Source: Emticicia sp. BO119
GTDB taxonomy: Bacteria; Bacteroidota; Bacteroidia; Cytophagales; Spirosomataceae
DNA length: 64,000 bases
Reading direction: 5' to 3'
Assembly (NCBI RefSeq): GCF_013912375.1
Contig: NZ_JACETV010000006.1
Location: forward strand, 62,001-126,000
Shown here: piece by piece, positions 49,291 through 64,000 of the stretch
Layout of the letters: each line of letters begins with the position of its first letter
Position numbering within the stretch: position 1 is the first letter of the stretch
Program-made: the position numbers and the translations under genes
Notes under the pieces: generated by a model
What the model was told of the DNA's origin: nothing
Databases searched by the model: none
Seen by the model: only the letters and a program-made list of their open reading frames with translations

Positions 49291-49327
49291 TGCCGAATAT
49301 TTCGGCATAACAATCCGAAAACATCGG
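49291..49327. promoter_or_regulatory. Two operator-like palindromes before the XRE-S24 gene
   Basis: TGCCGAATATTTCGGCA (49291-49307) has perfect 7-bp arms. A second, weaker dyad CCGA-5-TCGG lies at 49315-49327, its centre 22 bp (two helical turns) further on and 5 bp before the start codon. The layout suggests autorepression by the downstream regulator, as with lambda-type CI operators. Confidence 0.6.
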
Positions 49328-49331
49328 CACA

Positions 49332-50126
49332 ATGAAAAATAGTACAACTAAAACCTTACTTGCTTTTAATATTGCTCATTTGAGAAAATTAAAAGAATTG
49401 AGCCAGGGAGCTTTAGCAGAGGCATTAAGTGTCCCAAGAACCACATTAGGTTCATGGGAAGAAGGGAAATCATCTCCTACCATTGAGGGATTAACCGCCA
49501 TAGCAAAGTTTTTTGAAGTGTCGATTGATACTTTGGTAACCGTAGACCTCACACAGGTAACAGACCTGAAAAGTCTGCTTGAAATAGGCGGTAAACGAGT
49601 ATTGTTTCCGATAATGGTAGATAAACAAGGCAATGATATGATTGAGTTAGTGCCTGTAAAAGCATCAGCGGGGTATCTGACAGGTTACAATAATACTGAG
49701 TTTATTCAAGCTTTACCTCGTATTTCTTTGCCGTATATAGCCAACGGAAAATATAGGGGCTTTCCGATTATCGGAGACTCAATGCCTCCATTGGAAAAAG
49801 GAGCATTTGTAATAGGGAAATACCTGGAAAATCTCTCTGAGATAAAAGACGGTAAAACCTATGTTATACTCACCCAGAACGATGGGCTTGTTTATAAAAG
49901 AATACTCAAGTTTAATATGAAAGACAGGCATTTAATGCTCCATTCTGACAATACTTATTATATGCCATATAAACTACCCTTTGAAGAAATTTTTGAAATA
50001 TGGGAGTTTGTCTGTAGCATCAATCCTACCGACAAACAACCGACTGATTTACTTTTTTCTGTCTTACAAAGTGTTCAGAGTATTCAACACGATGTACAGA
50101 CGATTAAGTCAAACATGAAGTTGTAA
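49332..50126 (+). CDS. XRE regulator with LexA/UmuD-like S24 peptidase domain (paralogue 1)
   Basis: 264 residues. An N-terminal helix-turn-helix (about 10-66; LKELSQGALAEALSVPRTTLGSWEEGKSSPT) is joined to a C-terminal S24 domain. LexA-type features are all present: a cleavable Ala113-Gly114 in VKASAGYLTGY, nucleophile S150 in IIGDSMPP and lysine K189 in LVYKRIL; the spacings (36 and 39 residues) are close to LexA's (34 and 37). RecA-stimulated self-cleavage is therefore plausible. It is a paralogue of the gene at 59499. A terminator hairpin follows, then a 60-codon gene. Confidence 0.9.
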   Translation: MKNSTTKTLLAFNIAHLRKLKELSQGALAEALSVPRTTLGSWEEGKSSPTIEGLTAIAKFFEVSIDTLVTVDLTQVTDLKSLLEIGGKRVLFPIMVDKQGNDMIELVPVKASAGYLTGYNNTEFIQALPRISLPYIANGKYRGFPIIGDSMPPLEKGAFVIGKYLENLSEIKDGKTYVILTQNDGLVYKRILKFNMKDRHLMLHSDNTYYMPYKLPFEEIFEIWEFVCSINPTDKQPTDLLFSVLQSVQSIQHDVQTIKSNMKL

Positions 50127-55202: not shown

Positions 55203-58190
55203 TTAATCATTTATCACAAATGCTAATGAAGCATCAGAAATAGGCTCCGATACACTACGAGGATCAGGTTTATATTCAACCTTTCTCATAGATTCAATGT
55301 TTATTGAGTAAAACCCGAAGTCTTCAACCACTTTGCCACTCAGATAGTATATCCCCGCCCCCCTCAATGGATACTTTTCTAAAGAGTAAGGAAAATGGAC
55401 AGTATCGAAAAACTGGCCTGATAAATCATAGAAATAGCCAAAACCCATCAATTGTCCATTCTTTGTTCTGATAGATTTCCAGGTTACCAGATAGCCATAC
55501 AAATTTATATTCTTGTCAAACATCTCATGCAGGTTATCTGAAGTAAGTGTACTTTCTAATGGTTCTCCACATAAATCAAATGGAGACCCGATGGTAAACT
55601 CCAGAAATTCTATTTCATCATAGATATCTTCCAGTGGGTCGAATGATAAAGCTGGCAGGTTTGTTTCAGGTTCAAGGTATTCAAACAAAGCTTCCTTGTA
55701 AACTGAAGGTTTAAAATTATTATGCAATAATAAATGCGCCTCCCATAACAATTCCTTTTTCGACACTCCAAAGTTTCTGAATGTCCCCAGTCTGATCAGA
55801 ATAATGAGTTGATCAAGTCCTATCTCAATACGATGAGCAAAATCAGAAAATGACAAAAATCGACCATTTCGCTGCCTTTCATTCATTATTCTTTCCACAA
55901 TTTTCACTTCAAGGCTCTTTACATGCACCCAACCAAGCCAGATAGTTTTTCCCTTAATGCTGGTAAGGAACTGACTCTCATTTATATCCGGTGCTTCAAT
56001 CATTCCTCCTGAACGCTTGGCTTCATGAATATAAAATTCAGTCCGGTAGAATCCCCCAAAATTATTGATAACTGCTGTAATGAACTCCAAAGGGAAGTAG
56101 GTTTTCAAAAAAAGACTCTGGTAACTTTCAACGGCATAGGATGCTGAATGTGCCTTCGAAAAACTATATCCTGCAAAACTTTCTACCTGTCGCCAGACTT
56201 CTTTTGCCAGCTCATCGCTATACCCTTTTGCTTTACAATTGATAAACCATTTATCTACTATTTTTTCAAACTCTATCCTTGCCCTATATTTGCCTGACAT
56301 AGCACGTCTGAGCATATCAGACTCTCCCAGAGTCATACCGGCAAATTCATGAGCCACCTTTATCACATCTTCCTGATAAATCATTACCCCATAAGTATCC
56401 TCTAGTAATTCTTTCATTTTTGGATGCAGGTAGTCAATATTATATGGATTATGATGACGTTCTATATAGGCTTTCATCATACCGCTACTTGCTACTCCGG
56501 GTCGTATGATAGAACTTGCCGCCACCAGCGTCAGGTAGTTGTCGCACCTGAGTTTCCACATCAATTGCCGCATAGCCGGAGATTCTATATAAAAACACCC
56601 CATAGTTTCATTGCTTTGTAGCTTTTTTCTTACACTTTCATCTTCTTTAAACTTTTCTACCTGATGAATATCAATATTAATATTATGGTTTTCGCGTACT
56701 ATATCAACTGCCATTTTTATATGACCTAAACCTCGCTGAGACAATATGTCAAACTTCGAAAAGCCTATTTCTTCAGCTATATACATATCCCACTGGCATA
56801 TAGGGAATCCTTTAGGCATAGGTTGCAAAGCCGTATAATTGTATAAAAGTTCATCTGAAACAAGAATCCCACCCGCGTGTATTGACAAGTTCTGAGGAAA
56901 ATCGTCCATCAAGGGAGCATATTTCAGAATATACCTCATATATTCATTCTCCTGTGCCTTGTCGGGGTATCTCAGATAAGTATCTACTTCTGCTTTAGGT
57001 AAGCCAAAAACTTTCGCAAGCTCTCGTATGGCCGAATTACGCTGAAAAGTATTGTAGGTAGCCAGTAGGCAAACATATTCTTTTCCATATCTGGCAAAAA
57101 AATATTCAATAATTTCATTACGCTCATCCCAACTGAAATCTATGTCAAAATCAGGGGGTGAAGTTCTTTGTGGGTTTATAAATCTTTCGAAAAAGAGGTT
57201 TAACTCAATCGGATCAACATCTGTAATACCCATACAATAAGCCACTATTGAATTTGCCCCAGACCCCCTGCCTACATGAAAGTATCCTTTGTTTTTCGCA
57301 TAATTGATCACATCCCAGGTCATAAGGAAGTACGCTTCAAAATTAAATTCTTTTATGATTTTCAGTTCTTTGTCTATCCGTTCAAGAACTTTCGTATTAG
57401 ATATGTCGTATCTTTTAACTGCGCCATCAAGTGTAAGCTTACGAAGAAACTCAGCATCCCCCTCCTTGCTATGAGTATATACTCTCTTATTTTTATCTGC
57501 CTTAAAATCAAACTTAAAATTACAGGCAATCATAAGCGAGGCTGTATTTCTTAAGAAAAGGGGATAATTACTAAATTTCTCACCAAGAGTGAGCATATCT
57601 ATAAATAACTCATCAGGATAAGCCTCTACACTCTTCGGTAATTTACTTAATAATACATTTTTACCGATGGCCCTCAGCAAACGGTGTAGGTTATAAGTAA
57701 GTTTATCATGAAAAGTAACGGAGTGCATAGCAAGAATCTTTTGAAAAGCGGCATGCTTCTGATATTTAAAAAGTTTAGTTAATTCCCAGAAATGTACCCC
57801 TATATATTCGTGTTCATCAAGAGTTGGGTTTGATTCAAAACAGGTAATCGGATAGATAGTAAAACTATTCTTAAAAGGCGGCGCTTTTTGCGGGAATGGC
57901 TTTTCTGATTCCAGATATTCAGATAAAAACTTATTGATTTCACATAATCCCTTCTGGTTTTTTGCCAATGCAATGTACTTCAAATCATCGCCATTCCTGA
58001 ATTCCACACCAACAATGGGTATTATATCAACCTTTTCACATTCCTTTATAAAGTCAAATATGCCCGAAACATTATTAATATCGGTAAGGGCAAGCCTCTT
58101 GGATCCGGCAGCCTTGGCTTTGGCAACCAGGTCTTTTACACTAAGTGCTCCATAATTGAGACTAAAGTAACTATGGCAGTTTAGATACAT
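55203..58190 (-). CDS. Short DNA polymerase III alpha subunit, DnaE2/ImuC-like
   Basis: 995 residues, shorter than replicative DnaE (about 1150-1500). An N-terminal PHP domain (1-about 250) has lost metal ligands: NCHSYFS in place of HxHxxxS and LTDINN in place of LTDH, so proofreading is unlikely. The polymerase core has HVGRGSGANSIVAYC, catalytic D349-x-D351 in PDFDIDF, and D481 in SKFDILSQRGLG. The C-terminal region ends in an OB fold. Length, degenerate PHP and the neighbouring DinB gene point to an error-prone lesion-bypass enzyme, not the main replicase. Second gene of an operon, 26 bp after the Y-family polymerase gene. Confidence 0.88.
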   Translation of the reverse strand: MYLNCHSYFSLNYGALSVKDLVAKAKAAGSKRLALTDINNVSGIFDFIKECEKVDIIPIVGVEFRNGDDLKYIALAKNQKGLCEINKFLSEYLESEKPFPQKAPPFKNSFTIYPITCFESNPTLDEHEYIGVHFWELTKLFKYQKHAAFQKILAMHSVTFHDKLTYNLHRLLRAIGKNVLLSKLPKSVEAYPDELFIDMLTLGEKFSNYPLFLRNTASLMIACNFKFDFKADKNKRVYTHSKEGDAEFLRKLTLDGAVKRYDISNTKVLERIDKELKIIKEFNFEAYFLMTWDVINYAKNKGYFHVGRGSGANSIVAYCMGITDVDPIELNLFFERFINPQRTSPPDFDIDFSWDERNEIIEYFFARYGKEYVCLLATYNTFQRNSAIRELAKVFGLPKAEVDTYLRYPDKAQENEYMRYILKYAPLMDDFPQNLSIHAGGILVSDELLYNYTALQPMPKGFPICQWDMYIAEEIGFSKFDILSQRGLGHIKMAVDIVRENHNINIDIHQVEKFKEDESVRKKLQSNETMGCFYIESPAMRQLMWKLRCDNYLTLVAASSIIRPGVASSGMMKAYIERHHNPYNIDYLHPKMKELLEDTYGVMIYQEDVIKVAHEFAGMTLGESDMLRRAMSGKYRARIEFEKIVDKWFINCKAKGYSDELAKEVWRQVESFAGYSFSKAHSASYAVESYQSLFLKTYFPLEFITAVINNFGGFYRTEFYIHEAKRSGGMIEAPDINESQFLTSIKGKTIWLGWVHVKSLEVKIVERIMNERQRNGRFLSFSDFAHRIEIGLDQLIILIRLGTFRNFGVSKKELLWEAHLLLHNNFKPSVYKEALFEYLEPETNLPALSFDPLEDIYDEIEFLEFTIGSPFDLCGEPLESTLTSDNLHEMFDKNINLYGYLVTWKSIRTKNGQLMGFGYFYDLSGQFFDTVHFPYSLEKYPLRGAGIYYLSGKVVEDFGFYSINIESMRKVEYKPDPRSVSEPISDASLAFVIND

Positions 58191-58216
58191 TATAGTATAG
58201 ATTTGGATATTGATAA

Positions 58217-59407
58217 TTATTGAGTCAATGCTAAACTTTTCGTTTTATTGAGAGGCGGCTTACTTACTTGCATACCATTAGCTCTTCCTACTATCTTCTC
58301 ACCATGTTTAAGCTTTACTTTATCCATAGCCTGATGTAGAGAGGCAAGTCGGGACGAATTATCAAACAGGTTTATTTGAGAATATCCCTGCACCAGTTTG
58401 CTCAGACGCACCCCTATCAACCTGATTAGTAATCGTTTATCATACAGATTATCAAACAAATCCATTACTTTTTCTATAATTATCTGATCATCGGAGGTAT
58501 AAAAGACATGAGTTTGTCTGGTATAAGTATCAAAATTCGAGTACCGGATTTTGACAGTAATAGTCCCTGCACATTTTACCTGTTGTCGTAAATCAAAAGT
58601 CAGGCTTTCTACCATAAAGACTAATATTGATTTGAGCTTAACTGTATCAGTAGTATCTTTATCGAAAGTCATTTCCTTTGAGAAAGATTTCTGATCATGG
58701 TAAGGTACAATAGGTGTATCATCAATACCATTAGCCCGCTCCCAAAATAACTTGCCGTGCTTACCAAATACCGCCTCTAATAATTTCATTGGCATGGCAG
58801 CTAAAGTGCCAATATTTTGTATTCCCATTGTACGCAGTGTCTTGGCAGTAGTATCGCCAATCATAGGTAATTTATTAATGGATAACGGGTTTAAAAACGA
58901 CCTTTCACAGCCTGTCAGTACTTGTAACTTCCCGTTAGGCTTGGCTTCATTGGTAGCTACTTTGCTGACTGTCTTGCTGGTACTAAGACCAAAGGTGATG
59001 TCAAGGTGAGTTTCCTTAGAAATCCTTGTTTTAATTTCTTTGGCCCATTTATAACAACCGAAGAACTTCTCCATACCTGTAAAATCGCAATAGAACTCAT
59101 CAATACTGGCTTTTTCCAGTACAGGCACTGATTCGCTTATAATTTCGGTAACTGCATTAGAGTATTTTGTGTATGATTCATGATCTCCTTTCACAAAAAT
59201 GGCATCAGGACATAAGCGTTTGGCCAGTTGCGACGACATGGCAGAGTGTATGCCAAACTTGCGGGCTTCATAACTGGCCGAAGCAACTACACCTCGCTCG
59301 CTTGAGCCACCTACAACAACAGGCTTACCAATAAGTGATGAGTTTTTCAATCGTTCGACAGAAACGAAAAAGGAATCGAGGTCATAGTGAACTATGGCTT
59401 TTTCCAT
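58217..59407 (-). CDS. Y-family DNA polymerase (DinB/Pol IV type)
   Basis: 396 residues, full length. Palm motifs: HYDLDSFFVSVE with metal residues D9 and D11 and steric gate F14, then S101-I-D103-E104. The thumb region shows PMIGDTTAKTLRTMGI and the little-finger domain follows (about 240-345). Q344-I-N-L-F348 is a canonical beta-clamp motif (QxxLF). It is therefore a catalytically complete translesion polymerase, unlike the inactive ImuB that accompanies DnaE2 in other bacteria. Transcribed from the shared divergent region with the XRE-S24 gene, followed by the DnaE2-like gene. Confidence 0.92.
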   Translation of the reverse strand: MEKAIVHYDLDSFFVSVERLKNSSLIGKPVVVGGSSERGVVASASYEARKFGIHSAMSSQLAKRLCPDAIFVKGDHESYTKYSNAVTEIISESVPVLEKASIDEFYCDFTGMEKFFGCYKWAKEIKTRISKETHLDITFGLSTSKTVSKVATNEAKPNGKLQVLTGCERSFLNPLSINKLPMIGDTTAKTLRTMGIQNIGTLAAMPMKLLEAVFGKHGKLFWERANGIDDTPIVPYHDQKSFSKEMTFDKDTTDTVKLKSILVFMVESLTFDLRQQVKCAGTITVKIRYSNFDTYTRQTHVFYTSDDQIIIEKVMDLFDNLYDKRLLIRLIGVRLSKLVQGYSQINLFDNSSRLASLHQAMDKVKLKHGEKIVGRANGMQVSKPPLNKTKSLALTQ

Positions 59408-59449
59408 AAGTGCAAAGATGTGGATAAATATTTTTTGGGATTCTGCAAT

Positions 59450-59496
59450 AAATGTATGTACATTTTGTGTAGTATTGTCTCAACAAATTGTGTAGT
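59450..59496. promoter_or_regulatory. Divergent control region with palindrome and direct repeats
   Basis: AAATGTATGTACATTT (59450-59465) has perfect 7-bp arms around TG. TTGTGTAGT occurs twice (59465-59473 and 59488-59496) spaced 23 bp apart, with a small dyad TTGT-CTCA-ACAA (59475-59486) between them. All lie between the divergent polymerase operon and XRE-S24 gene, so the regulator could control both. Operator function is inferred. Confidence 0.55.
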
Positions 59497-59498
59497 TA

Positions 59499-60299
59499 AT
59501 GGAAAATCAATTATTAAATCAGGTAAAAATAGCTCGGAACATTAAGTCATTAAGACTTGGAAGGGGATTAACGCAGGAGCAATTGGCCGAGGCACTTGCT
59601 ATTCCGAGTACCCGCTATGCCAATTATGAGCAAGGTACAAGAGCGATTCCTATCGATACGTTGTCAGCCATCTCCTCTTATTTTCATATTGCTTTAGATG
59701 CCTTAGTGAAATCAGATTTAAGTAAGGTTGATTTGAAAGGTTTAATGAAAATAGGCGAAAACCGCTTGCTATTCCCTGTTCTGATTAAAGATGATGGGAA
59801 GGTTGAAAGCATTGAGGTAGTACCCGTAAAAGCTTCGGCCGGATATTTAAGTGGCTACGCAGACCCTGAATTTATAGAGACGCTTCCGAAGGCGTCTTTG
59901 CCGTTTATTGGCATTGGTACACACAGAGGTTTTCCACTTACCGGAGACTCCATGCTACCGATTCCCGACGGAGCTATTATTATAGGGAAGTTTATAGAAG
60001 AAATAGCTGATATAAAAAGCGGCCGGACATACATTGTGGTTTCAACCACAGGCATTGTTTATAAGCGGGTTTACACAAAAACAGAAGAAAATACCTTACT
60101 ATTAGTTTCTGACAATAAGATTTATAGTCCTTATGAAATGCCCTTTGAAAATATTCTCGAATTATGGGAGTTCAGGTGCTTTATCAGTACGAAAGAGTAT
60201 GCGGCTGATGAATATTCTTTAGAAAACCTTTTTCAGCAGATGCATGGTATTACCAAAGGGATTGAGGATATTAAACAGAAGATTGGTACTCAGACTTAG
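59499..60299 (+). CDS. XRE regulator with LexA/UmuD-like S24 peptidase domain (paralogue 2)
   Basis: 266 residues. A helix-turn-helix (about 12-68; LGRGLTQEQLAEALAIPSTRYANYEQGTRAIP) is joined to an S24 domain with cleavable A114-G115 (VKASAGYLSGY), serine S151 (LTGDSMLP) and lysine K189 (GIVYKRVY). Spacings (36 and 38) match LexA-type self-cleaving proteins. It is divergent from the Y-family polymerase/DnaE2-like operon and probably represses it until DNA damage activates RecA. Its paralogue is the gene at 49332; both keep every catalytic feature. Confidence 0.9.
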   Translation: MENQLLNQVKIARNIKSLRLGRGLTQEQLAEALAIPSTRYANYEQGTRAIPIDTLSAISSYFHIALDALVKSDLSKVDLKGLMKIGENRLLFPVLIKDDGKVESIEVVPVKASAGYLSGYADPEFIETLPKASLPFIGIGTHRGFPLTGDSMLPIPDGAIIIGKFIEEIADIKSGRTYIVVSTTGIVYKRVYTKTEENTLLLVSDNKIYSPYEMPFENILELWEFRCFISTKEYAADEYSLENLFQQMHGITKGIEDIKQKIGTQT

Positions 60300-60396: not shown

Positions 60397-63300
60397 TTAA
60401 TCCACAAACTCAATAGTATTTACTGCAAATAGCGGTTTACCTTCCGGTTTAGGGTTTTTAAACACAAAATAGATATTTTGTTCTCCTGCAATATCAACCT
60501 TGATTTTCAATGGAGCCATACTTGATTCCTGTATGTCGCCTGTGCCTACTACTGTTCCGGTTGGTGAGCCTAATCTTACTTCCAGGCTACCTCCTACTGT
60601 CTGCCCTTTTTGCGAGAATGCACCAATAATAATGGTTTTAATGCCTGTCAGGTCAATGTTTTTGAAAGCGATATAACTGTCATTTTCAGAAGCTACTACT
60701 ACTTCGCCACCCAATTGCTCCACATTAAACTTCGCAGCGCCTTTCGATTCGTCATAGGTAGCTGCTTTTAATTTAGGGCTACGCAAAGCCAAAGATTGGG
60801 TAGTAGTCAGTGGGCCGATTACTTTTCCACCTTTGTCAGTATAAGTAGCCTGAATAATGTAAGCTCCTTCTTTTTTACCTTTATGCGCTGCAGCATCATA
60901 AGCACCTGTAACAGGCTGCGAAGCCTTGCGGGTATCGTTCAAAGAAAGAATGTAATCAACCATGTCTCTTGCTTCTGACATAGGTATCTGCGGGTGAGCA
61001 GCCATCGCTTGTTCGCCCCATACACCACCCCCACCTTTGATTACCTTCTCAGCTAACTGGTTGATGGCCGTTTGACCACGTCGGTATTTCTTCGCTACAT
61101 CCATATAAGCAGGCCCAATAGATTTTTTATCAATTGCATGGCAAGCCTTACAGTCACTTAAATCAATCAGACGTTTACCTGCGGCAAAGTTCATATTTTC
61201 TTTATGCCCCTGCTCCAGCATGGTTTTATCATACCCTTCTAAATAGTTGATATTTACTACTACATCTTCAGGGTCAATACCTTTGCTTAATGTACCATCT
61301 TCTTTATCAGTTACTTTTACGTCGTAATTAATTTTATCGTTATCAAAGAAGAAGGTTTTATTACCTTTCACGGATATATTTACAGTAGGCTCTGCATTTC
61401 CTACTTTAATAATACTCGTCTGTGACGATTTATTTCCGGCTGCATCTGTTACCGTCAGTACTACATTATATTCACCCGGTTTGGTAAAAGTAAACTTCGG
61501 ATTCGCCTGTGTGCTTACAGGTAAACCTTTACCAAAATTCCAAGAGTATTTCAATGCATCTTTATCATAATCTAAAGTTCCGGCAGACGAGAAAGCTACT
61601 GCCAATGGAGCCGCCCCTGCTTTTTTATCAGCTGCCATCGTAATCACAGGTTTTCTATTGCCTGCATTATATTCAATTACTGATAAAGTAGCATCTTCGT
61701 TTTGCGCAAACCAGTTCATTCCATAATCTAACACAAACAAGCGACCGTCTTTAGAAAAAGCCATATCCATAGGGTGAGCAAATTTGGTGCTTGGCATAAA
61801 GCGCTCCATTCCCTGATAATTGCCTTCTTTATCCATACTTATCAGATAAATCCAGTCACGCATCCACTCATAGGCAAAGAATTTACCATCAAAATAACTT
61901 GGGAAACGCTTAGGATTATTAGTATAATCTTCTGAATAATAGACCGGACCTGCCATTGGATTGCAACCTCCTTTACCAAATTCAGGATATAGTTTTGATG
62001 GGCCATAGCCGTAGTAAATCCATGCTTTGGTAGCAGGCATCAATTCTCTTAGACCTGTATTATTAGGAGAGTCATTGATAGGTTTTGCCGGGTCATATTT
62101 CTCACCTGATTCTTTCCTGGCAAAATCGTAATGGTTATAGGCAAAGTTATCACCTGTGAAGATGGGCCAGCCGAAAAAGCCCGGTTTGCGTGCCTGATTA
62201 AACTCTACTATACCCTCCGGGCCACGATTAGGGTTGCCTTTACCAGCATCAGGGCCTACATCACCCCAGTATAAGTAGCCATTGCGTTTATCAACTGAAA
62301 TTCTGTAGGGGTTTCTATGACCCATCGTATAGATTTCCGGACGGGTTTTCTCTGTTCCTGCCGGATATAGGTTACCTTCTGGGATGGTATAAGTGCCGTT
62401 ATCCTGTGGTTTGATTCTTAATACTTTTCCACGTAAATCGTTGGTATTACCAGATGAGCGAAGCGCATCCCAGCCTTCACGACCCGGTTGAAAGTCGATT
62501 GGTGCATAGCCATCAGAAGCAAACGGGTTGGTATCATCGCCTGTTGAAAGGAAAAGATTGCCTTTACCATCCCAGTCGATTGAACCGCCTGTATGACAAC
62601 ATTCGTCACGTTTTACATATACACGCAACAATACCTTTTCTGACGACATTACAATCGTATCTTTCTTATCGTCATACTCAAATCTTGCCAGAAAATTATC
62701 TTTCGTTACTTCACGGGTTTCGTCTGGTGTATAGTACAGGTAAATCCAGTGATTTTTCTCATAATTCGGGTCAGCCCCGATACCCATCAAACCATATTCA
62801 AATTTAGTATAAACAGGCATTTGTCCGGCTACTTTCACTTTTTTAGTAGTCGGATTCCAGACTTTTAAAGCTCCTTTACGCTCCACAAAAAGTACCTTAC
62901 CATTTGGTAAGACTGTTAATTCTGTTGGTTCATTTAAATTACTTGCCAGGGTAATACGCTCAAAACGATTTTCTTCTGGTGCACGTACCGAACGGGCTTT
63001 AGAATAATCCAGTTTAGTAGCCATTGCCCATTTCAACCCCTGCCAGTAATGCTCCATTATTAATGGCTCACTGAAAGTCTCAGGCGTATGGCCATAGTTT
63101 GTATAAAAAGCCTTACCCCCATCAAATTCATGATACCATGCCATTGGGTGAAAATCTCCCATTTTACCCATTTCATAGCTGCTTTCATCAACTCTTACTA
63201 TAAATTTCAAGATGTCTTTTTTCAAAGACTTGAAATCATAAAACTCATCGGTTTTTTCAAAAGTATCAGGAAAATGCGCCGAAGCAGGGAATGTTTTATC

Positions 63301-63750
63301 AAGTGTAATCATTTTACCTTTTTGCACATTTGATACTCTTCCACCCGGGTGGCTGGCAAAATATCCGCCCATCAGATCGTTGTACCAGGGCCAGTTATAT
63401 TCTGTATCAGAGGCTGCATGGATACCCACATAACCACCCCCTGCCTGAATATACCGCTCAAAATCAGCCTGTTGTGCCGGATTCAGCACATCTCCGGTAG
63501 TGCTTAAAAATACAACAGCGGCATAATTTTTCAGATTGGCTTCATTAAATTTTGAAGCATCAGTGGTGGTATCAACACCAATGGCTTGTTTTCTGCCCAA
63601 TTCTATAAAAAACTGATTACCTTCTTTAATAGAATTATGGTGAAAACCCTTTGTTAAAGAAAAAACCAATATTCTTCTTTGCTGTGCAAACGAACTTACA
63701 CTAACAAATAAGAGTAGCATTAAAAGGATAGGATTAAACTGTCTTTTCAT
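60397..63750 (-). CDS. ThuA - PQQ-type sugar dehydrogenase - PKD - cytochrome c - CBM6-like fusion
   Basis: 1117 residues from MKRQFNPILLMLLLFVSVSSFAQ, a signal peptide (the frame is open to 63798). Domains in order: ThuA (about 25-240; AAVVFLSTTGDVLNPAQQADFERYIQAGGGYVGIHAASD); an SGL/glucose-sorbosone-dehydrogenase beta-propeller (about 265-680; TGGSIDWDGKGNLFLSTGDD, MGHRNPYRIS, FFGWPIFTGDN); a PKD domain (about 690-780); a mono-haem cytochrome c domain with C867-K-A-C870-H871; and a CBM6-like domain (about 990-1117). It would oxidise sugars in the periplasm or at the surface, passing electrons to its own haem. Such fusions are known in Bacteroidota. Confidence 0.92.
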   Translation of the reverse strand: MKRQFNPILLMLLLFVSVSSFAQQRRILVFSLTKGFHHNSIKEGNQFFIELGRKQAIGVDTTTDASKFNEANLKNYAAVVFLSTTGDVLNPAQQADFERYIQAGGGYVGIHAASDTEYNWPWYNDLMGGYFASHPGGRVSNVQKGKMITLDKTFPASAHFPDTFEKTDEFYDFKSLKKDILKFIVRVDESSYEMGKMGDFHPMAWYHEFDGGKAFYTNYGHTPETFSEPLIMEHYWQGLKWAMATKLDYSKARSVRAPEENRFERITLASNLNEPTELTVLPNGKVLFVERKGALKVWNPTTKKVKVAGQMPVYTKFEYGLMGIGADPNYEKNHWIYLYYTPDETREVTKDNFLARFEYDDKKDTIVMSSEKVLLRVYVKRDECCHTGGSIDWDGKGNLFLSTGDDTNPFASDGYAPIDFQPGREGWDALRSSGNTNDLRGKVLRIKPQDNGTYTIPEGNLYPAGTEKTRPEIYTMGHRNPYRISVDKRNGYLYWGDVGPDAGKGNPNRGPEGIVEFNQARKPGFFGWPIFTGDNFAYNHYDFARKESGEKYDPAKPINDSPNNTGLRELMPATKAWIYYGYGPSKLYPEFGKGGCNPMAGPVYYSEDYTNNPKRFPSYFDGKFFAYEWMRDWIYLISMDKEGNYQGMERFMPSTKFAHPMDMAFSKDGRLFVLDYGMNWFAQNEDATLSVIEYNAGNRKPVITMAADKKAGAAPLAVAFSSAGTLDYDKDALKYSWNFGKGLPVSTQANPKFTFTKPGEYNVVLTVTDAAGNKSSQTSIIKVGNAEPTVNISVKGNKTFFFDNDKINYDVKVTDKEDGTLSKGIDPEDVVVNINYLEGYDKTMLEQGHKENMNFAAGKRLIDLSDCKACHAIDKKSIGPAYMDVAKKYRRGQTAINQLAEKVIKGGGGVWGEQAMAAHPQIPMSEARDMVDYILSLNDTRKASQPVTGAYDAAAHKGKKEGAYIIQATYTDKGGKVIGPLTTTQSLALRSPKLKAATYDESKGAAKFNVEQLGGEVVVASENDSYIAFKNIDLTGIKTIIIGAFSQKGQTVGGSLEVRLGSPTGTVVGTGDIQESSMAPLKIKVDIAGEQNIYFVFKNPKPEGKPLFAVNTIEFVD

Positions 63751-64000
63751 TAGAATAACTAATATTTTGTATGAGTAACAAAGGTAATCAAAAACCAAAG
63801 AATAAGTGTCATATAGACATTAAAAAGTATTTTTTTGAGAATATATAGGAGGATTTTCCGAATAATATCTATTAACTGGTTGTCCGCAAACTATCATTGC
63901 CGTTAAAAAGGTTCCCACCATATTGGTAACCTTTTATGGGTTCGGTTGCGTGGTTGCTACGCTGATTTTCTGAAAACCTTCGATGTCCTCGTTCAAAAAG
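63751..64000. other. Right-edge region with repeat copy
   Basis: 250 bp upstream of the giant dehydrogenase gene. The first 90 bp are AT-rich and must hold its promoter. From about 63890 to the edge lies the inverted copy of the repeat found near 34.25 kb, followed by sequence (GGGTTCGGTTGCGTGGTTGC...) that is slightly richer in GC and may belong to the same element. No gene is visible; the element runs off the window. Confidence 0.5.
63905..63939. repeat. Dispersed repeat, copy 2 (inverted)
   Basis: AAAAAGGTTCCCACCATA (from about 63906) through TTGGTAACCTTTT is the reverse complement of about 34253-34284. The last bases of the window, CTCGTTCAAAAAG, resemble the reverse complement of the 34285-34295 flank, so a further copy may begin at the edge. 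Confidence 0.7.

Follow-up and report, generated by a model that had tools for sequence, protein, structure and literature searches.

A putative DNA-damage-inducible polymerase cassette with its own LexA-like regulator gene in Emticicia sp. BO119

An XRE-S24 regulator gene faces two DNA polymerase genes in the window (the whole stretch of 64,000 nucleotides from Emticicia sp. BO119 that was analysed). The question raised by this locus is whether these genes form a damage-induced mutagenesis cassette and, if so, of which type. The first-pass annotation proposed that a complete DinB takes the place of ImuB in the absence of imuA, and suggested a differently wired mutasome.

Gene content and active sites of the locus

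The three genes of the locus are as follows.

55203..58190, minus strand: PolIII-alpha homologue, 995 aa (ORF and Pfam); the label DnaE2B type is inferred from PMC12926913
58217..59407, minus strand: Y-family DNA polymerase, 396 aa (ORF and Pfam); labelled Bacteroidetes PolY2 type through its resemblance to the protein of PMC6511836
59499..60299, plus strand: XRE-S24 regulator of non-canonical LexA type, 266 aa (ORF and Pfam)

Pfam assigns PHP, PolIII-alpha, finger and HHH_6 domains to the 995-aa ORF, IMS and IMS_C to the 396-aa ORF, and HTH_3 and Peptidase_S24 to the 266-aa ORF. The polymerase ORFs are separated by 26 bp (58191-58216), and the divergent gap between the regulator and the Y-family polymerase is 91 bp (59408-59498). 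These coordinates agree with the annotated layout, in which an S24 regulator faces a two-gene polymerase operon with a spacing of 26 bp. The three ORFs are not regarded as chance ORFs, because their domain matches are full-length and the arrangement recurs. By inspection, some neighbouring genes in the window look like ordinary chromosomal ones, for example an ORF resembling a penicillin-binding protein.

The Ala-Gly, Ser and Lys residues of the regulator align with A84-G85, S119 and K156 of LexA, and are A114-G115, S151 and K189 by hand count. This alignment, together with the Pfam matches, confirms the annotation of the regulator as a LexA-like XRE-S24 protein with these residues intact. A phage-type HTH combined with an S24 domain, a scissile Ala-Gly and a Ser-Lys dyad is the combination that characterises non-canonical LexA in PMC8565304. 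The closest protein to this regulator in the genome is encoded outside the cassette, downstream of tandem dyads.

49332..50126, plus strand: XRE-S24 paralogue of the cassette regulator, 264 aa, with 44% identity over query residues 9-260
49293..49327, plus strand: tandem CCGA-N5-TCGG dyads 5' of the paralogous regulator

The Y-family polymerase has D, D and E at the columns of D8, D103 and E104 of E. coli DinB. It also contains a QINLF-type clamp motif, which is present in all 23 PolY2 proteins examined. The annotated presence of a catalytically complete DinB with a clamp motif in the position of ImuB is thus borne out. The C-terminal tail of this protein shows weak RecA-NT-like similarity. 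When the tail profile is compared with whole proteins, many decoy ORFs outscore RecA; when it is compared with N-terminal segments, the RecA score is reached by 9 and 3 of 1000 shuffles, but the positive control, a segment of E. coli UmuC, fails with 142 of 1000. Pfam DUF4113 matches two of eight PolY2 proteins (best E 0.11), and the PolY of the window is not one of them.

The alpha homologue has D347, D349 and D481 at the columns of D401, D403 and D555 of E. coli DnaE, indicating that the catalytic triad is intact. Its PHP metal site is decayed, with H6, D37 and the acidic residue E63 kept and the other four of the seven columns compared differing. Its C-terminus is shorter, the final residue aligning with residue 1095 of the 1160 of E. 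coli DnaE. In the alpha tree it groups with sequences that form a clade of their own (20 rows, 100/100), to which neither imu-linked DnaE2 nor replicative DnaE belongs; the S_Streptomyces sequence is included in this tree, as a long branch, and left out of the active-site alignment. The genome has three DnaE proteins, which removes the possibility, raised in the annotation, that the alpha homologue is the only one. Identification of the alpha homologue as the replicative enzyme is rejected, given a separate 1194-aa replicative-type DnaE and the separate tree clade. Its identification as the DnaE2/ImuC of imuABC cassettes is likewise rejected, on the basis of the clade and of the NCBIfam error-prone DNA polymerase model, whose cut-off of 939 is well above the score of 488 obtained for the alpha homologue; an imu-linked DnaE2 from a related genome reaches 1366. 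A second DnaE2B gene in the genome is an orphan with no adjoining polymerase gene.

Occurrence in other genomes and relation to ImuA-ImuB

The arrangement of the cassette is real and common in Bacteroidota. Among 146 genomes of the order, counted with kinship ignored, 36 have both PolY2 and DnaE2B, 7 have PolY2 alone, 1 has DnaE2B alone and 102 have neither. In this count, PolY2 is scored at 366 bits or more, with the addition of the incomplete proteins of G022 (two pieces taken as one) and G122 (a fragment), and DnaE2B at 525 bits or more. DnaE2B lies within 5 kb at 24 of the 44 PolY2 loci of the order. A divergent S24 gene lies within 2.5 kb at no fewer than 20, and both neighbours are found at at least 14; these S24 counts are lower bounds, as S24 was scored in the genomes of interest only. 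For the 80 top-ranking loci taken from named genome records, a sample that favours close relatives and in which some flanks are short, DnaE2B is in the flank at 62, a divergently oriented S24 gene is no more than 1.5 kb away at 33, both are present at 26 and neither at 11. The three-gene arrangement, for which the annotation had proposed a search of Bacteroidota, recurs in both samples. The PolY2/DnaE2B pair is not obligatorily encoded in one operon, because 20 of the 44 PolY2 loci have no DnaE2B within 5 kb.

The two polymerases may be co-induced without forming a joint mutasome, with lesion bypass by PolY through the clamp and, separately, by DnaE2B acting alone as an error-prone extender. 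The intact active sites of both enzymes, the seven PolY2 genomes without a DnaE2B match, the unpaired PolY2 loci, the orphan DnaE2B and a residue pair close to the region of the clamp motif in the five DnaE2B rows aligned (LF-type in four, MF in the fifth) are consistent with such independence. However, 36 of the 37 DnaE2B genomes also have PolY2, and published AlphaFold models support DnaE2/PolY modules as complexes (PMC12926913). Independent action is therefore considered rather unlikely, and a joint cassette is the preferred reading.

If dinB were the counterpart of imuB and imuA were located elsewhere, the locus could be a canonical ImuA-ImuB-DnaE2 cassette, which has a similar layout of an SOS-type regulator, a Y-family gene and a PolIII-alpha gene. 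However, the ImuA query gives no hits in the genome and the ImuB query gives only a weak match to ordinary DinB, while both match in five positive-control genomes, strongly in the case of ImuA. This result upholds the annotated absence of imuA. With the catalytically complete Y-family enzyme and the low family score and separate clade of the alpha homologue, it makes the canonical interpretation highly improbable. In one related genus, four genomes contain both PolY2-DnaE2B and imuA-imuB-dnaE2, so that ImuA and ImuB are both present in at least 4 of the 37 DnaE2B genomes of the sample (the search covered nine genomes). These four genomes run counter to the statement of 2026 (PMC12926913) that DnaE2B genomes are without ImuA and ImuB. 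Because they contain both kinds of DnaE2 system, two mutasomes can be compared within a strain.

Candidate operators

The gap between the divergent genes contains two copies of a candidate operator, found by pattern search.

59460..59471, plus strand: candidate operator ACATTTTGTGTA (ACA-N5-TGTA)
59483..59494, plus strand: candidate operator ACAAATTGTGTA, 23 bp from ACATTTTGTGTA and immediately 5' of the regulator start codon

Across the 91 bp between the divergent genes, TACA-N5-TGTA is the sole perfect 4-N5-4 dyad. An operator call from this single dyad is rejected, since one is seen and 0.52 is expected in shuffles; therefore only shared and tandem occurrence is retained as evidence. Genome-wide, tandem pairs of ACA-N5-TGTA separated by 8-14 bp occur at two places, and at none for the mirrored control. 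These places are the cassette promoter and the promoter of an SplB/PA0069-like radical-SAM gene. Further candidate copies are located 5' of umuDC and of the orphan second DnaE2B gene. The cassette itself is without UmuD, and umuDC, the radical-SAM gene and the second dnaE2B are on other contigs. A genome search with ACAWWWYGTGTA gives 24 matches against 10 for the mirrored control, but the pattern is partly derived from the cassette and SOS-type promoters, and 5 of the 24 are sites used to build it. Two other matches precede the radical-SAM gene, 12 are within ORFs, one overlaps an argH-like ORF at its start, and four are intergenic and adjoin no gene recognised as SOS-type, two of these being one palindrome read on both strands. 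The recA gene is rejected as a target: its locus has no ACA-N5-TGTA, and one near form, TACA-N5-TGT, is far from the start.

GGA-N5-TCC is not seen in the 91-bp gap by inspection, and CTAA-N5-TTAG is not the dyad there. ACA-N5-TGTA is thus a candidate operator that differs from the two main published motifs, although it may be listed in the diverged-motif table of PMC8565304. A dyad-N5-dyad operator in the regulator's own promoter and common to SOS genes, as described for such regulators in PMC8565304, is present at the level of sequence. No 4-N5-4 dyad is found in the gap of the close relative on an Emticicia plasmid. No common operator is found among the relatives, whose gaps, compared without statistical control, hold differing dyads or none that is clear.

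The cassette may alternatively be cargo of a mobile element, with a phage- or plasmid-type repressor and its own polymerases, outside the chromosomal damage response. The closest plasmid match, 65.6% identical, is on a plasmid of Emticicia oligotrophica, typed as conjugative, where the three genes likewise occur together, and the HTH of the regulator is of phage-repressor type (Pfam; PMC8565304). In contrast, the candidate operator also precedes umuDC, the radical-SAM gene and the second dnaE2B on other contigs, and the neighbours of the cassette, such as the penicillin-binding-protein-like ORF, look chromosomal. The mobile-cargo interpretation is regarded as improbable.

Proposed mechanism and comparison with known systems

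Judging from its sequence, the locus is very probably a translesion/mutagenesis cassette that is inducible by DNA damage, belongs to the DnaE2B-PolY-RecA type already described and is controlled by a non-canonical LexA of its own. This assignment is based on the gene content, the active-site residues, the failure to find imuA and imuB, the conserved arrangement and the shared candidate operators, all of which are observed. In the undamaged cell, a dimer of the regulator would bind the two ACA-N5-TGTA sites and repress the dinB-dnaE2B operon as well as its own gene. RecA filaments on single-stranded DNA would then promote self-cleavage of the regulator at Ala114-Gly115, and this cleavage would release the operon, umuDC, the second DnaE2B gene and the radical-SAM gene. 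PolY, which QINLF is predicted to tether to the clamp and the C-terminal tail to RecA, would partner DnaE2B. The two enzymes, the latter without a usable PHP proofreader, would copy past lesions at the cost of mutations.

An active PolY2 + DnaE2 pair without ImuA was proposed for Bacteroidetes in 2019, for Cellulophaga algicola (PMC6511836), and a DnaE2B-PolY-RecA putative mutasome was named in 2026 (PMC12926913). XRE-S24 regulators and dinB-dnaE operons under their control were reported in 2021, and mitomycin induces such a regulator and the facing error-prone polymerase gene in E. anophelis (PMC8565304). The annotated "differently wired mutasome" therefore stands as an active PolY with a PolIII-alpha in the absence of imuA, but it is not new. 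A probable switch sequence, and further genes that this sequence may control in Emticicia sp. BO119, are the additions made here. In the 2021 study, the Cytophagaceae homologues were not assignable to either cluster; the present data support a PolY2 + DnaE2 pair under a putative LexA-like switch in this kind of lineage, the candidate operator and the further putative targets backing such control. If this is true, induced mutation in much of Bacteroidota depends on components that differ from the ones known from proteobacterial and mycobacterial models. A broader proposal, which is speculative and held to be possible rather than probable, is that Bacteroidota have plug-in SOS cartridges instead of one fixed regulon. 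Each polymerase set would have a private S24 repressor and a fast-changing 4-N5-4 operator, and one cell might hold two insulated circuits, as in the related genus with PolY2-DnaE2B and ImuA-ImuB-DnaE2. The repressor of the window would also have captured umuDC, the radical-SAM gene and an orphan DnaE2B able to swap partners.

The locus shares with DnaE2B-PolY-RecA (PMC12926913) an intact Y-family polymerase linked to an active DnaE2 in Bacteroidota, a genome in which ImuA and ImuB are not found, a clamp motif and an inactive-looking PHP. It differs in the additional divergent XRE-S24 gene with candidate operators, LexA not being mentioned in the main text of that paper, and in the second, orphan DnaE2B of the genome. 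With the non-canonical LexA of COG2932-type XRE-S24 (PMC8565304), the regulator shares HTH_3 and S24 with Ala-Gly, Ser and Lys, a 4-N5-4 type dyad in its own promoter, and putative SOS-type targets including dinB-dnaE, umuDC and an SplB-type radical SAM; its candidate operator is ACA-N5-TGTA and not GGA-N5-TCC or CTAA-N5-TTAG. Like UmuDC, which is encoded elsewhere in the genome behind a candidate operator, the cassette has a Y-family enzyme with a putative RecA contact, but it is without UmuD and has DnaE2B in addition. ImuA-ImuB-DnaE2 (ImuC) is likewise an SOS-type cassette of a Y-family protein and a second PolIII-alpha, whereas the cassette of the window is without ImuA and the inactive ImuB, and its alpha homologue belongs to another clade, far below the family cut-off.

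Composition of the cassette and type of its polymerases

The cassette consists of a regulator gene that faces, across a divergent promoter region of 91 bp, an operon in which the Y-family and PolIII-alpha genes are separated by 26 bp.

59499-60299, + strand: XRE-S24 regulator (HTH_3 and Peptidase_S24 domains)
58217-59407, - strand: Y-family polymerase (IMS and IMS_C domains)
55203-58190, - strand: PolIII-alpha homologue (PHP, DNA_pol3_alpha, finger and HHH_6 domains)

The columns of LexA A84-G85, S119 and K156 are aligned with the S24 residues of the regulator. Ser and Lys are kept in all 18 aligned XRE-S24 proteins; at the scissile position, 12 of them have Ala-Gly, five Ala-Ser and one Lys-Gly. 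The S24 regulators near PolY2, the Bacteroidetes-type active Y-family polymerase, at loci L033, L035, L037, L042, L047 and L039 have Ala-Ser (five) or Lys-Gly (one) at the LexA Ala-Gly position and retain Ser and Lys. An XRE protein of 352 aa (L015:3233-4291) shows partial S24 similarity, its C-terminal part being 35% identical to the window regulator; no obvious catalytic serine is found in it by eye. A large ORF at 60397-63798 joins ThuA, glucose/sorbosone dehydrogenase, PKD, cytochrome c and CBM_6 domains.

At the positions of the E. coli DinB D/D/E triad, the aligned Y-family enzyme has the same residues, and its clamp motif is matched in 23/23 PolY2 proteins; the column of the first D is not readable in 4 of the 23, in which the called ORF starts downstream of this residue. 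The first-pass annotation is correct in describing a LexA-like regulator facing a two-gene operon with a catalytically complete, clamp-binding-motif Y-family enzyme. The catalytic aspartates D347, D349 and D481 are kept in the alpha homologue and throughout its 20-row clade, and the PHP metal site of the homologue is degraded in the alignment. Reduced PHP and thumb domains are mostly limited to Bacteroidetes DnaE2s, according to a passage of PMC3919608.

In a tree of 38 DnaE proteins (rooted for drawing only; one Streptomyces row is long-branched), the window type makes up a group of its own with 20 rows (support 100/100). A separate group comprises seven imu-linked DnaE2 from related genomes and also takes in ImuC of an annotated Agrobacterium imuA-imuB-dnaE2 cassette (support 100/100), and nine replicative DnaE form the third. 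The NCBIfam error-prone DNA polymerase model (cut-off 939) gives 488 for the window alpha and 1366 for one imu-linked DnaE2. The tree grouping and the score below the cut-off rule out that the window alpha is ImuC. It fits the DnaE2B of PMC12926913, as far as the text available goes, a label that we draw from composition and phylum rather than from the tree of that paper.

The genome contains three PolIII-alpha genes. One encodes a replicative-type DnaE of 1194 aa, one is the window copy, and the third is a further DnaE2B gene on another contig (L012:4677-7691), which is 66% identical to the window copy and has two candidate operators upstream and no adjoining Y-family gene. The window alpha is therefore not the only DnaE of the genome; had it been, this would have spoken against a mutagenesis cassette, as named beforehand. 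Matches to the IMS model reveal three Y-family genes, namely ordinary DinB, the window copy and UmuC with adjoining UmuD. The ImuA query gives no match in the genome, and the ImuB query matches ordinary DinB alone and weakly (E 1.6e-4), while both match strongly in five control genomes.

Recurrence in related genomes

PolY2 is present in 43 and DnaE2B in 37 of 146 genomes of the order; 36 contain both, 7 PolY2 only, 1 DnaE2B only and 102 neither (Fisher p 6e-26, kinship ignored). DnaE2B lies within 5 kb of PolY2 on the same strand at 24 of 44 loci (16 downstream, 8 upstream), a divergent S24 gene within 2.5 kb at at least 20, and both at at least 14. The three-gene arrangement, for which a search had been proposed, recurs in the window's order, with DnaE2B downstream, at at least 11 of the 44. 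Among the best 80 PolY2 loci from named genomes, the fetched flank contains DnaE2B in 62, a divergent S24 gene in 33, both in 26 and neither in 11; the genera include Maribacter, Flagellimonas, Arenibacter, Algoriphagus and Arthrospiribacter. The trio is also found on an Emticicia oligotrophica plasmid typed as conjugative (L144), where it adjoins a gene annotated as SOS response-associated peptidase.

Candidate operators

Promoter comparison reveals a motif, ACA-N5-TGTA, common to several promoters of this genome.

Window 91-bp gap: two copies, 23 bp apart
Before umuDC: one copy
Before the orphan dnaE2B: two copies at a spacing of 67 bp, some 300 bp upstream of the gene

The pattern ACAWWWYGTGTA, derived from these five sites, has 24 matches in 6.57 Mb, compared with 10 for the mirrored control. 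Single matches mean little, because 12 of the 24 are inside ORFs and four are intergenic, with no recognised SOS gene nearby. Two of the 19 matches beyond the source sites precede a radical-SAM gene, also 23 bp apart, and a relaxed tandem (ACA-N5-TGTA, 8-14 bp, ACA-N5-TGTA) occurs genome-wide only in the window and radical-SAM promoters (mirrored control, 0). The top NCBIfam match of the radical-SAM gene, below cut-off, is the PA0069 family, which belongs to COG1533/SplB. COG1533/SplB is given as a conserved SOS target in a passage of PMC8565304. No ACA-N5-TGTA site is found at the recA locus. This candidate operator and regulon may be an addition to the known picture for the lineage.

A second XRE-S24 regulator (49332-50126) has intact Ala-Gly, Ser and Lys. 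Tandem CCGA-N5-TCGG dyads, occurring twice, precede it at 49293-49327 and are found nowhere else in the genome, which suggests that each regulator paralogue may have a private operator. The corresponding gap of relatives contains the candidate dyads CTAA-N5-TTAG (twice, locus L043), GTGCT-N5-AGCAC (twice, L039), GTTAA-N5-TTAAC (L033, L037 and L047) and TGGA-N5-TCCA (twice in genome G068, once in G123); no clear dyad is seen there in others, such as the Emticicia plasmid. These differences agree with the motif divergence reported in the accessible part of PMC8565304, in which Cytophagaceae homologues could not be assigned.

Proposed working and comparison with known systems

The cassette, with its observed gene content, residues and co-inheritance, most likely works through dynamic steps that we infer as follows. 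DNA damage would give rise to a RecA filament, upon which the S24 regulator would cleave itself; this cleavage would release dinB-dnaE2B and other targets, and error-prone synthesis would be carried out on the clamp by PolY and DnaE2B together with RecA. RecA contact is the central element of the published DnaE2B-PolY-RecA model. In a whole-protein profile search with the PolY2 tail, RecA does not rise above decoys. In a segment test, the scores of two RecA N-termini are reached by 9/1000 and 3/1000 shuffles, that of E. coli UmuC, the positive control, which thereby fails, by 142/1000, and that of this genome's UmuC by 17/1000. A RecA contact of the Y-family tail is only weakly seen.

The cassette is real, and its main lines had been read correctly, but it is not a differently wired mutasome of a new kind, because this kind is already described. 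For other species, the regulator, its dinB-dnaE operons and their induction by damage are treated in the text seen of PMC8565304. No experimental test of the PolY2-DnaE2B pair is found in the literature searched, which covers few subscription journals. Added here are the candidate operator and regulon, the second, orphan DnaE2B and the co-occurrence of PolY2-DnaE2B with imuABC in genomes of one genus. In genomes of one related genus that also have PolY2-DnaE2B, imuA-imuB-dnaE2 is located at loci L125, L126, L128, L129, L130 and L131, with an S24 gene divergent from imuA at L125 and L126. G114 and G123 have one S24 gene divergent beside the imu cassette and another beside PolY2.

Unlike the ImuA-ImuB-DnaE2 system, the window cassette is in a genome in which no imuA or imuB is found, and its alpha belongs to another tree group. 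DnaE2B of the DnaE2B-PolY-RecA system is stated, in the part of PMC12926913 consulted, to occur in genomes without ImuA or ImuB, whereas PolY2, DnaE2B, ImuA, ImuB and imu-linked DnaE2 occur together in G068, G114, G123 and G136, all from one related genus, which is a small correction, provided that the window-type alpha equals its DnaE2B. As in the non-canonical LexA system, to the extent that passages of PMC8565304 describe it, the dinB-dnaE operon of the window lies beside a LexA-type regulator.
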